From the NCBI RefSeq assembly GCF_003675875.1, contig NZ_RCDI01000001.1, positions 1 through 64,000 on the forward strand: a stretch of DNA of 64,000 nt, given 5' to 3'. Position 1 is the stretch's first letter. Every line of letters begins with the position of its first letter. This document shows, piece by piece, positions 11,971 to 46,326 of this stretch. A program made the position numbers and the translations under genes. The stretch is from Halostella limicola. GTDB taxonomy: Archaea > Halobacteriota > Halobacteria > Halobacteriales > Natronoarchaeaceae. The notes beneath the pieces are model-generated. The model was not told the origin of the DNA and did not search any database. It saw only the letters and a list, made by a program, of their open reading frames with translations.

Positions 11971-13584
11971 TTACGCCCGCTTTCGGGCGGAGTCGAGGTC
12001 GATGTCGACCTCATCCAGTTTCTCTTCCCACTCCTCGCGTTTCTCCTGGTGGTCTTCGAGGAACTCCTCCATCAGCTCCGCGGCCTGTTCCTTGCAGCCG
12101 CCGCAGAGGCGCTCGCCGGTGACGCACTCGTCGTACACCTCCTTCGCGAACTCGTCGTCCTCGCCGGCGAGCAGGTAGGCGTACAGCTCGTAGACGGGAC
12201 ACTCGTCGGCCTTGCCGCCGAGTTCGCGCTGCTCCTCGGCGGTCTCGCGGCCGCCGGTCGTCGCCGCCTTCACCTTGTCGTAGCCGTCCTCGGGGTCGTC
12301 CAGCAGCGAGATGTGGCTGGCGGGGATCGAGGAGGACATCTTCCCGCCGGTGAGGCCAGTCATGAATCGGTGGTAGATCGAGGAGGGCGGCACGAAGCCG
12401 TAGCCGCCGTTGTCGATCTCGACCTCGCGCGCCAGTTCCTCCGCCGCCTCGCGGTCGAGCTCGAACGAGTCGACGTGGCCCTCGTAGACGCGCTTCTCGC
12501 CGTCGACGGCCTCGATCAGCGCGTCGAACGCCTCGTCGGTTGCCTGCCGGGCGAAAAAGCGCGTCCGGGGGCGGAGCGGCTCCTTGCCGGCCTCCGACAG
12601 CTTCTCGACCGCGGAGTCGCGGGCGTCGGAGGGCGCGACCTCCTCTAAGAGCCAGTCGGCGGCCTCGCCGCAGCGCGGCCGGTCGGGGTCCTCGGCGTAC
12701 TCCTCGCGGGCGTCGTACGCCCGCCGGAGGAGGACGCGCTCGGCGTCGTCGGCCTCGAAGCTCGCGAACGCCTCAGTCACCTTGAAGAAGCGCATCCGGG
12801 CGGCGAGGTCGCGAGCGAGGCGGACGTGCGGGTCCTGGTCCGGGCCGACCGGGATGACGGTCGGCTTCGGCTCGTCCAGTTGGGGGTAGAGGATGTCGGC
12901 CATCTGCGTGACGACGCTCTGCATGTGCGAGACGTCGGTCTCGCCGTCGAAGCCGTAGATCCCCTGGAACTCCGAGAAGCGCGCCTCGCTCCCCAGCTCG
13001 AAGGCGAGGTCCTGCACCTCGCGATTGCTGGACTGGCGGTACAGCGTCCCGTCCTCGGGGTCGAAGCCGAGCGCCAGCAGTGAGAGGACGTAGTCCCGGG
13101 CGTGCTCGTCGATCTCCGCCCACGACAGGCCGCGGGCGCTGTGCGCTTCGAGGTCGGCGATGAGCGCGTGCGCATCGCCCCCCTGCTCCTGATGCCAGAT
13201 GATCTCGTCGAAGACGAGCTTGTGGCCGATGTGCGGGTCGCCGGTCGGCATGAACCCGGAGAGCGCGGCGAACGGCTCGCCGTCGCGCATCGCGTCCGCC
13301 ACGGGGCGGTAGTCGCGGTGGCCGAAGATGACCCCGCGGCGCATCAGGTAGTGCGGGTCGGGCACCTTGGGGAGCACCTCGTCGAACTCCTCGATGCCGA
13401 ACTCCTCGAACAGCTTGCGGTAGTCGGAGACGTTGGAGGACCCCCAGGGGTCGAGAGCCACGCCGTCGACGGTTCCACCGTCTGCTCGAGGCGTCTTCGA
13501 CGCCTCCGTGTCCGCGCCGGCGGCCTCCGTTCGGCCCCCGTCCGGGCGGGCCTCCTCGTCGGCGTCGCGAGTCTCGTCAGTCAT
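11971..13584 (-). CDS. trpS: Tryptophanyl-tRNA synthetase, long form (first of two)
   Basis: This 537-residue class I synthetase charges tRNA-Trp. After an acidic, low-complexity N-terminal extension (about residues 1-42), the core has FMPTGDPHIGHK (HIGH motif, about 111-122) and GGKMSSSIP (KMSKS-type motif, about residue 412-420). A C-terminal segment has Cys pairs (CPVYELY, CVTGERLCGGCKEQ) that could bind a metal. ATG 13584 is preferred over longer frames because a TATA-like CCTTTTGCA lies about 27 nt upstream. Unlike the second trpS at 44101-45252, this gene shows no leader ORF. It lies downstream of endA on the same strand but has its own promoter. Confidence 0.95.
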   Translation of the reverse strand: MTDETRDADEEARPDGGRTEAAGADTEASKTPRADGGTVDGVALDPWGSSNVSDYRKLFEEFGIEEFDEVLPKVPDPHYLMRRGVIFGHRDYRPVADAMRDGEPFAALSGFMPTGDPHIGHKLVFDEIIWHQEQGGDAHALIADLEAHSARGLSWAEIDEHARDYVLSLLALGFDPEDGTLYRQSSNREVQDLAFELGSEARFSEFQGIYGFDGETDVSHMQSVVTQMADILYPQLDEPKPTVIPVGPDQDPHVRLARDLAARMRFFKVTEAFASFEADDAERVLLRRAYDAREEYAEDPDRPRCGEAADWLLEEVAPSDARDSAVEKLSEAGKEPLRPRTRFFARQATDEAFDALIEAVDGEKRVYEGHVDSFELDREAAEELAREVEIDNGGYGFVPPSSIYHRFMTGLTGGKMSSSIPASHISLLDDPEDGYDKVKAATTGGRETAEEQRELGGKADECPVYELYAYLLAGEDDEFAKEVYDECVTGERLCGGCKEQAAELMEEFLEDHQEKREEWEEKLDEVDIDLDSARKRA

Positions 13585-44100: not shown

Positions 44101-45252
44101 CTACCCCAGCGGGTCCGGGCGTAGCCGCTCGCGTTCGTCCGCCGTCAGCCGGTACGGTTCGAGTTCGTCACGGAGGTCGCCGAGCGCCTCGCGGCGGCGC
44201 TGATGCGCGTCGAGGAACTCGGCGATGCGGTCGATAGCGTGCGCTTTCATCTCCCCGGAGAGCAACTCGCCGGAGCGGTACTCGCGGGCCAGCCGCGCCA
44301 CCTCGGCGTCGTCGTCCTCGAAGAAGGCGCGGAGGTACCGGAAGGCGACGTCGACCTCCGGGTCCCCGCCGTGCTCGCGGTGCTCGGCGAGGCTTTCGCG
44401 CCCGCCGGAGTAGGCGTGTCTCTCGACCTTGCGCTCGACCGTCTCGTGGTCGTCGGTGAGGTAGATCGACGGCGCGTCGTCGGAGCTGCTCATCTTCCCC
44501 GGGCCCGTCAGTCCGGGGAGGAACTTCGAGAGCAACGCGCCAGGCTTTCGCACGTCGTACTTCTCCTTCGCGGCCACGTCGCGACACACCCGGACGTGGG
44601 GGTCCTGGTCGACGGCGATGGGGACGAGCGTCGGGTGCTCGCCGTGGACGAGTTGCGGCAGGAGCAGGTGCGTCGCCTGCATCGCCGGGTAGAACGAGGT
44701 CCCGACGTTCCCCGGCTCGCCGTAGGTGGCGTCGACCGTCGCCTGCGTGATGTCGCTCGCGAACGACGCGGCGTGCGGGTAGAGCGCGCCGGCGTCGGCG
44801 GTGTCTATCACGATCCGCGTCCGGTCGGGGTCGAACCCGACCGCGAGCAGGTCTCGCAGGTTCTCCCGGAGATGCCCGCGGACCTCGTCGAACGAGAGGC
44901 CCCTGGTGAAGTACTTCTCGTCGTCCGAGACGGGGACGTACACGTGCGCGCCCGTCCGCTCCTGCAGGTGCTTCGCGAAGTAAAAGGGGAAGACGTGCCC
45001 GATGTGGAGGGGGCCGGACGGCCCCAGTCCCGTCACTATCGAGTGCGTCTCGCCACGCTCCGCGGCGGCGAGGAACGGGTCGAGGTCCCGCTCCGCGTAG
45101 AACACCCGACGGCGCACCAGCGGGTGAGGCGGGTCGGGGAAGCGATCGATCTGGTCGTCGGTCAGTTCGTCGGCGCCGAAGCGGTCGAGGAGCTTCTCGT
45201 AGTCGAGTTCCCCCTCGACGTCGTACGGCGTCACTGTGGCGTCGGCTGTCAT
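44101..45252 (-). CDS. trpS: Tryptophanyl-tRNA synthetase, short form (second of two)
   Basis: This 383-residue class I synthetase has HIGH at 83-86 (GPSGPLHIGHVFPF) and the KMSKS-type motif GPGKMSSSDDAPS at about residue 245. It lacks the acidic N-terminal extension of the copy at 11971-13584 and is a distinct paralogue. ATG 45252 (MTADATVTPY) is the family start. It is preceded by a 169-nt leader containing a mini-ORF with Trp-Arg-Trp, which the other trpS lacks. One paralogue being constitutive and the other inducible is a plausible reading. Confidence 0.95.
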   Translation of the reverse strand: MTADATVTPYDVEGELDYEKLLDRFGADELTDDQIDRFPDPPHPLVRRRVFYAERDLDPFLAAAERGETHSIVTGLGPSGPLHIGHVFPFYFAKHLQERTGAHVYVPVSDDEKYFTRGLSFDEVRGHLRENLRDLLAVGFDPDRTRIVIDTADAGALYPHAASFASDITQATVDATYGEPGNVGTSFYPAMQATHLLLPQLVHGEHPTLVPIAVDQDPHVRVCRDVAAKEKYDVRKPGALLSKFLPGLTGPGKMSSSDDAPSIYLTDDHETVERKVERHAYSGGRESLAEHREHGGDPEVDVAFRYLRAFFEDDDAEVARLAREYRSGELLSGEMKAHAIDRIAEFLDAHQRRREALGDLRDELEPYRLTADERERLRPDPLG

Positions 45253-45337
45253 GCTGTGGTGAGGTCGTAGCTGCAAGGCTGGTCGGACGGCGGTGCGCGA
45301 GAGAAAGCGAGTGAGCGCCGGCCGCCCGGGCGACGGG

Positions 45338-45421
45338 TTACGCCGCGCCGGCCGCGCCGCCGACACTGTCCGCTCCCCGGAGCCGACGCCAGCGCCAAGC
45401 CGAGACGGGAGCGGAACGCAT
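45338..45421 (-). CDS. Putative Trp-containing leader peptide of trpS2
   Basis: This 27-codon ORF starts with ATG at 45421 and ends with TAA. Codons 9 and 11 are both TGG in the context AWRWRR; two Trp in 27 codons is a strong excess for such a rare residue. A CGCTTTTTTGCG TATA-like element is centred 26 nt upstream of the ATG, predicting a leaderless start. The Trp codons lie between two segments (45407-45415 and 45369-45377) that are perfect 9-nt complements. This matches the pheST leader design. It is not shown to be translated. Confidence 0.62.
   Translation of the reverse strand: MRSAPVSAWRWRRLRGADSVGGAAGAA
45369..45415 (-). repeat. 9-nt inverted repeat bracketing the Trp codons in the trpS2 leader
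   Basis: The minus strand reads TCCGCTCCC at codons 3-5 (45407-45415) and GGGAGCGGA at codons 15-18 (45369-45377), with both TGG codons (45395-45397, 45389-45391) in the loop. An 11-bp direct repeat GCGCCGGCCGC (45315-45325 and 45345-45355) flanks the leader stop and offers GC-rich alternative pairings. Confidence 0.65.
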
Positions 45422-45445
45422 CGCGTTAGCGTAGTCGATGCCCGC

Positions 45446-45451
45446 AAAAAA
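45446..45451 (-). promoter_or_regulatory. trpS2 promoter T-tract/TATA
   Basis: On the minus strand a run of six T in CGCTTTTTTGCG lies between the rio1 stop and the leader ORF. Its centre is 26 nt from the leader ATG. It could also act as the rio1 terminator. Confidence 0.6.
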
Positions 45452-45465
45452 GCGTTTCGAGGTCC

Positions 45466-46326
45466 TTAGTTCCCGCGGGGGTCCGCGTTCTTCCGGACGT
45501 ACGCGAGCAGGTCCTCGCCGGAGACGTCGAGGCCCTGCCGGGCGAAGAAGTTCGCGACGTTCTCGCAGTCGCGTTCGAGGAAGTCCTCGGCGTTCGGGTG
45601 GTGGATAGTGACGGCCTGCCCGACGTCGATGACGACGAGGTGGCCGTCGTAGACGACGACGTTGTACTCCGAGAGGTCGCCGTGGACGAGGCCGGCGTCG
45701 TAGAGGCGGCGGACGTACTCCCGGAGCACCTCGTACGCCGTCTGGGGGTTCTCGACGTGGACCTCGCCGAGGCGCTTCGCGCGCTCGCCGTCGTGGCCGA
45801 GAAACTCCATCACGAGGGCGTTGCGCTCGACGGCGATGGGGTCGGGGACGCGGACGCCGGCCTTCTGGGCGCGCTTGAGGTTGGCGAACTCCTTTTTCGT
45901 CCACGCGAGCACGACCCGCTTCTTGTCGCCGCCGAGGTCGTCGATGCGGGGGTCGCCGACGAGGTAGTCCCGCATGTCCCGGAAGTCGCTGGCGTTGATC
46001 CGGTACACCTTGATCGCGACCTCGCCGCCGCTGCCCAGCGCGGCGTAGACGTTCGCCTCCTTGCCGGTGGAGACGGGGCCGCCGAGTGCGTCCACGTAGC
46101 CGTCCTGCACGAGCTTGTAGAGGGCGGCGAAGGTCGCGTCGTCGAACACCGACGCCTCGACCTTGAAGCGCTCGCTGTTTTTGATCTTCTTGCGGAACTC
46201 GTCGAACTCGCGGTCGCGCTCGCGGGCGATCTCGTCGGCCTCCGTGTCGGAGACGTCGAGTTCCTCCCACTCGTCGCCCGGCGCGTCGGCGTTGTCCTGG
46301 TCGACCAGTTCGAACTCGCCGGTCAT
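45466..46326 (-). CDS. rio1: RIO1-type serine/threonine kinase
   Basis: This 286-residue atypical kinase is involved in small ribosomal subunit maturation. The nucleotide-binding part is GGPVSTGKEANVYAALGSGGEVAIKVYRI, the catalytic loop is LVHGDLSEYNVVVYDG, and the metal-binding Asp is in VVIDVGQAV. The N-terminal 35 residues are acidic. It is the second gene of an eif1A-rio1 pair 67 nt apart on the minus strand. Confidence 0.95.
   Translation of the reverse strand: MTGEFELVDQDNADAPGDEWEELDVSDTEADEIARERDREFDEFRKKIKNSERFKVEASVFDDATFAALYKLVQDGYVDALGGPVSTGKEANVYAALGSGGEVAIKVYRINASDFRDMRDYLVGDPRIDDLGGDKKRVVLAWTKKEFANLKRAQKAGVRVPDPIAVERNALVMEFLGHDGERAKRLGEVHVENPQTAYEVLREYVRRLYDAGLVHGDLSEYNVVVYDGHLVVIDVGQAVTIHHPNAEDFLERDCENVANFFARQGLDVSGEDLLAYVRKNADPRGN

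Follow-up and report, generated by a model that had tools for sequence, protein, structure and literature searches.

The question raised by this locus is whether a short open reading frame (ORF) with two closely spaced Trp codons, found ahead of the second tryptophanyl-tRNA synthetase (TrpRS) gene of Halostella limicola, is the leader of an attenuator. Codon-sensing attenuation is a textbook form of bacterial regulation, as in the E. coli trp system, and an earlier note on the 64,000-nucleotide stretch analyzed here (the window) had read the ORF in these terms. Our analysis supports that reading. We assign a probability of roughly 80% to the leader being a ribosome-mediated attenuator of the auxiliary TrpRS gene; leader translation, ribosome stalling, the direction of the response, and termination are what we infer from in-frame Trp codons, mutually exclusive folds, a promoter of the leaderless type, and a switch to Ser codons ahead of serS. 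The earlier reading missed the two hairpins, the pyrimidine tract, the other genes under the element, and the absence of a bacterial U-run terminator.

Translation of the minus strand bore out a 27-codon ORF whose 9th and 11th codons are TGG, and the leader indeed measures 169 nt from the first base of the mini-ORF to the trpS2 ATG at 45252 (Table 1). The downstream gene, which in the proposed model would be the one regulated by the Trp-codon leader, was assigned to NCBIfam NF008927 (548.7 bits; cut-off, 478) and also matches PF00579. On the other side, a RIO-type kinase gene has its stop at 45466, and the BRE and T6 box lie just past its end. The frame of the leader ATG extends further upstream, to a GTG at 46270, so the ATG is not its earliest start codon, and it is the promoter, not the ORF boundaries, that sets the limits of the 27 codons. 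Two Trp residues within three codons are not rare in one genome, since they occur in 6 of the 221 short ORFs of the window, and under a Markov model of the 169-nt leader such an ORF has a P value of about 4e-4. The significance of the WxW mini-ORF comes from conservation and not from the single genome. A covariance model of the whole element (R1) found the trpS2 leader as its sole match in this genome, the runner-up scoring 15.8 bits (E = 0.04). The long trpS at 11971 and all other genes of this genome are thus without the element.

Table 1. Features of the trpS2 leader region, with positions in the window
Feature	Position	Strand	Details or basis
Leader transcript promoter (predicted)	45446..45459	-	From sequence; BRE CGAAA 45459-45455, TATA-like T6 45451-45446
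Leader ORF, 27 codons, MRSAPVSAWRWRRLRGADSVGGAAGAA	45338..45421	-	Translation; ATG at 45421, stop TAA 45340-45338
Putative regulatory codons Trp9-Arg10-Trp11 (TGG CGC TGG)	45389..45397	-	In hairpin 1 loop; codon 9 at 45397-45395, codon 11 at 45391-45389
Arm A, TCCGCTCCC (hairpin 1, 5' side)	45407..45415	-	Within leader codons 3-5; pairs with arm B
Arm B, GGGAGCGGA (hairpin 1, 3' side; alternative partner of tract)	45369..45377	-	Folding, swap test, covariation
Hairpin 2 (arms C:D), AGTGTCG...CGGCGCT	45314..45367	-	RNAalifold; leader stop TAA in apical loop
Conserved pyrimidine tract, CACTCGCTTTCTCTC, directly 3' of hairpin 2	45299..45313	-	Candidate termination site
trpS2, auxiliary TrpRS, 383 aa	44101..45252	-	HIGH and KMSSS motifs
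Whole attenuator-like RNA element, ~127 nt	45295..45421	-	Covariance model R1, 85.2 bits, E = 8e-28

Among the 392 Halobacteriales genomes searched, trpS2 was present in 148, belonging to 46 of 95 genera. Upstream DNA was taken for 150 trpS2 matches, and 148 remained once a broken fragment (L022) and a distant paralogue (L023) had been left out. The leader element precedes trpS2 in 144 of these 148 orthologues, across dozens of genera, and its common parts are a start codon (ATG in 116 leaders, GTG in 28), a pyrimidine-rich arm, in-frame TGG, an arm GRGAGCGGACAGT or a covarying form of it, and the tract GCTC[AC]CTCCGYT. Loss of the TGG codons had been named beforehand as an outcome that would refute the proposal; at least one in-frame TGG is present in all 144 leaders, and at least two are present in 135, the loop holding one Trp in 9 leaders, two in 95, three in 36, and four in 4. 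Trp makes up 24.5% of the loop residues in frame versus 0.2 to 0.7% in the other frames. When the start was picked blind to Trp in 71 scored non-redundant leaders, 153 of 177 TGG triplets fell in frame and 69 leaders had at least one, both failures being leaders whose chosen start was a GTG within the stem. The codon between the Trp residues is variable (Arg, Gln, Pro, Cys, Ser, or His), and arrangements such as WW, WPW, WCW, and WRWRW keep TGG in frame with the start codon despite indels. A scan of the named genomes gave two relatives only. Four trpS2 genes (L085, L092, L128, and L147) lost or never had the leader and have instead an AT-rich box near their own start, which suggests that they are expressed from leaderless transcripts without Trp-codon control. 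Separately, trpS2 is split into two frames in one genome (G046, C9:85572-86710, L021) and is broken in another (G045, C39, L022), which is consistent with a dispensable auxiliary enzyme.

The position of the promoter indicates where translation of the leader may begin. In Haloferax volcanii, 72% of protein-coding transcripts are leaderless, and the haloarchaeal promoter consensus is CGAAA/TTWT/WW (PMC4983044). Upstream of the leader ATG we found the T6 box that the earlier note had described, with its center at 27.5 nt and not at 26 nt, together with a WW element (TA) at 45433-45432; the arrangement agrees with that consensus, in which a haloarchaeal leaderless gene has BRE/TATA near -34/-27 and WW near -10 relative to its start codon. 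The mean profile of 73 non-redundant leaders has A/T maxima at -36 to -34, -30 to -25, and -12/-11 of the leader start, and none of these maxima is seen upstream of the trpS2 start codon. Since the promoter lies at the canonical haloarchaeal distance from the leader start, the leader ORF is probably leaderless and translated from the very 5' end.

The leader RNA is predicted to form two hairpins, the first of which encloses the Trp codons in its loop, while the second pairs AGUnUCG with CGnnGCU immediately 5' of the tract. RNAalifold on an uncurated alignment (A1) found hairpin 2 but not hairpin 1, misaligned starts being the probable cause, and a curated alignment (A2, 47 sequences) was used for both. 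In A2, 89.8% of the cells of the two hairpins are paired versus 81.0% in shuffled controls, 125 cells are changed on both sides versus 44.7, and covariation is 0.339 versus 0.177, with slid controls at or below 0.110. In particular, changes on both sides affect 7 of 9 pairs in hairpin 1, where 94.3% of cells are paired, and 6 of 11 pairs in hairpin 2. When arms from different species are combined, each hairpin loses about 4 kcal/mol of stability (-19.5 versus -15.2 ± 0.26 kcal/mol for hairpin 1, and -19.9 versus -16.0 ± 0.29 for hairpin 2). Furthermore, the reading frame of arm B differs between lineages, or the arm falls past the stop codon, so that arm B is conserved as RNA. The tract (GCTC-CT, with C, T, and C nearly invariant) lies 56 to 61 nt from the arm B core in 138 of 143 leaders. 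In several leaders (L013, L155, L156, and others) hairpin 1 is rebuilt, with a stem CTGTCCGCTGGCG/CGCCAGCGGACAG or a similar form that takes in a Trp codon. A group with arm B GCCAGCGG (L013, L015, L091, L117, L133, L139, L155, L156, L161, and L166) has a hairpin 1 of about 13 bp with the Trp codons in its 5' arm. As regards the leader stop codon, 92 of the 144 leaders have it in the apical part of hairpin 2, and the others have it either before hairpin 2 or in the hairpin 1 loop.

Arm B has a second possible partner, positions 45310-45302 within the tract. When the full leader was folded, hairpin 1 formed in 92% of 143 leaders and the arm B:tract helix in 8%; after deletion of everything 5' of arm B, which imitates a ribosome sitting on arm A and the Trp codons, the helix with the tract formed in 98%. 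It comprises 8.2 expected pairs versus 5.5 to 6.1 in shuffles, part of which is accounted for by purine/pyrimidine composition. Folding and compensatory change support the mutual exclusivity of the structures, but arm B and the tract show only a weak coevolution signal: the swap test gave -11.32 versus -11.02 ± 0.11, and a GUG/CAC association (P = 6e-4) is uncorrected for phylogeny and has at most four cases behind it. Such weakness follows from a nearly constant tract and from G-U pairs that tolerate changes in arm B, and we treat the helix as likely, supported mainly by retained complementarity rather than by proven covariation.

On this basis, it is possible to hypothesize the following sequence of events. 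Transcription would start at or beside the leader ATG, and a ribosome would load onto the nascent mRNA at its 5' end. With plentiful Trp-tRNA, it would clear the Trp codons and terminate, so that hairpin 1 (arm A with arm B) and hairpin 2 form and the tract stays single-stranded; transcription would then end at the exposed tract, and the most likely mechanism is U/C-tract termination with the help of FttA/aCPSF1. If Trp runs short or TrpRS is inhibited, so that little charged tRNA-Trp is available, the ribosome would stall on Trp9 or Trp11 and cover arm A, arm B would pair with the tract and extend hairpin 2, and the polymerase, with the tract hidden, would read through into trpS2.

The controlled step is, in our interpretation, probably premature termination at the tract. 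No long U-run is present there, with at most three consecutive U residues in this window, and classical intrinsic termination is therefore unlikely. Termination by FttA/aCPSF1 has been described in archaea (PMC11616081, PMC8716108), with the proposal that the factor and coupled ribosomes compete for the polymerase (PMC8116511; PMC11616081). It is the obvious candidate for this step, although it acts as a terminator in general and is not known to serve as the output of any codon-sensing leader. The same features would also suit control of mRNA stability by the same sensor, the exposed tract being cut by a nuclease and the sequestered tract protecting the mRNA: the tract alternates between a single-stranded and a paired state, it has no long U-run, and FttA/aCPSF1 is itself a ribonuclease (PMC11616081), so that cleavage and termination are hard to separate. 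We nevertheless consider this alternative unlikely, as the fixed spacing of the tract, right after a 5'-leader hairpin and ahead of the coding region, is reminiscent of an early decision on termination and no known haloarchaeal nuclease site was identified.

Bacterial leader ORFs often act on translation, and the lack of a bacterial-type terminator in this leader would agree with a leader ORF and folding that govern initiation at the trpS2 start codon. That start codon, however, lies outside both structures, a median of 44 nt past the tract, and its accessibility is 0.50 versus 0.56 in the two states, which disfavors its occlusion. Since it is about equally accessible in both, control more probably acts on transcription or RNA stability, and we regard translational control as improbable.

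The other genes that the element precedes bear on whether it senses codons. A generalized covariance model (R2), applied to the 392 Halobacteriales genomes, matched in 177 of them, covering 55 of 95 genera; in a phylum-wide sample every match was to Halobacteriales, and the element was not found outside this order. In genomes absent from the trpS2-positive set, the element precedes the long TrpRS gene trpS1 (L206, L208-L213, L215, L216, L224, L238-L242, and L246), with leaders such as MVSTSTDRWRWRWQ; the trpS1 of L206 is 80% identical to the window gene at 11971. Once, it is found ahead of trpD (L225, TIGR01245), with the leader MLSAFRSWSWRWYRSGKRTVS. In two genomes of one genus (G170 and G193; L222 and L223), which carry their main serS elsewhere, the element precedes a second, auxiliary serS (TIGR00414, 434 bits), and the leaders (MESTSRSRSQSSFWEVDS) have Ser codons in place of Trp. 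The genes behind the Trp leaders (trpS2, trpS1, and trpD) thus serve the synthesis or charging of the same amino acid, as serS does behind the Ser leaders. That the loop codons change along with the synthetase under control is, of the independent signs of codon sensing, the strongest; the codon rule is loose for acetyltransferase leaders, and the Ser case comes from one genus only. An untranslated structured RNA, either protein binding or riboswitch-like, in which WRW is a by-product of conserved RNA sequence, would account for the conservation of arm B, AGT, and tract in any reading frame. It is very improbable in view of TGG codons that vary in arrangement and stay in frame through indels, Ser codons that replace Trp ahead of serS, a promoter at the leaderless distance from the leader start, and the lack of an Rfam match. 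A functionless chance mini-ORF, conceivable in this window from its six comparable short ORFs, is refuted by the compensatory changes and by the presence of the leader in 144 of 148 orthologues, and has a negligible probability.

Compared with known systems, the haloarchaeal leader resembles bacterial trp attenuators in its short leader ORF, its tandem or near-tandem Trp codons (in-frame in 144 of 144 leaders), the hairpin over these codons, the mutually exclusive downstream pairing, and the Trp gene downstream. Different from them, it is archaeal, its leader ORF is apparently leaderless, and in place of a GC hairpin with poly-U it presents hairpin 2 followed by a mixed C/U tract; moreover, the antiterminating pairing appears to mask the tract and extend hairpin 2 instead of destroying a hairpin. 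The lack of a poly-U terminator and the other domain of life set the element apart from the classical attenuator family. An antibiotic-resistant TrpRS gene of S. coelicolor is attenuated. Attenuators of the trp type belong to trp operons of Corynebacterium and Streptomyces, and in Streptomyces Trp-codon attenuators have been predicted both for these operons and for trpS2, including that of Streptomyces avermitilis (PMC1262725). As in Halostella, an auxiliary TrpRS gene is there placed under a Trp-codon leader, but these attenuators are bacterial and have poly-U terminators, and the likeness drawn here is one of architecture. T-box riboswitches, which are untranslated and bind tRNA directly, sense tRNA charging upstream of synthetase genes, as the haloarchaeal leader would do. 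Over 45000-45800, Rfam covariance models gave nothing up to E = 1, be it a T-box, Trp_leader, or another described leader family.

In the open-licence literature searched, we found nothing on point about archaeal attenuation, haloarchaeal Trp leaders, or Halobacterium trpS2, and attenuation goes unmentioned in a 2021 review of how transcription and translation are coupled in archaea (PMC8116511); novelty is thus provisional. We give about even odds to a widespread class of haloarchaeal ribosome-mediated attenuators that would combine leaderless leader ORFs, FttA-type tract masking, no bacterial terminator, and re-targetable codons, the re-targeting (Trp for trpS2, trpS1, and trpD; Ser for auxiliary serS) being part of this joint reading. 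If true, ribosome position on the nascent mRNA would control transcription in archaea, and the element would make coupling and FttA termination in archaea accessible to genetics in living cells and provide an amino-acid-responsive switch for haloarchaeal genetics.

The wider scan also returned matches of other kinds. Nine matches of about 20 to 31 bits (L247-L253, L256, and L257), with no leader ORF or matching gene behind them, were rejected as chance. Two degenerate copies (L243 in G189 and L254 in G202) are followed by no synthetase gene in the stretch examined, and a third Ser leader (L221) lies ahead of a broken serS copy. The element is also found ahead of GNAT acetyltransferase genes (L219:1001-1723, L220, L244:1001-1766, L245, and L207), whose leaders are mostly without Trp codons and have no obvious common codon. 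Finally, a class I methyltransferase gene, present in two near-identical copies in G189 (L217:1001-2123 and L218), carries the element with the leader MVSVSYLMRWLTFWEADS.
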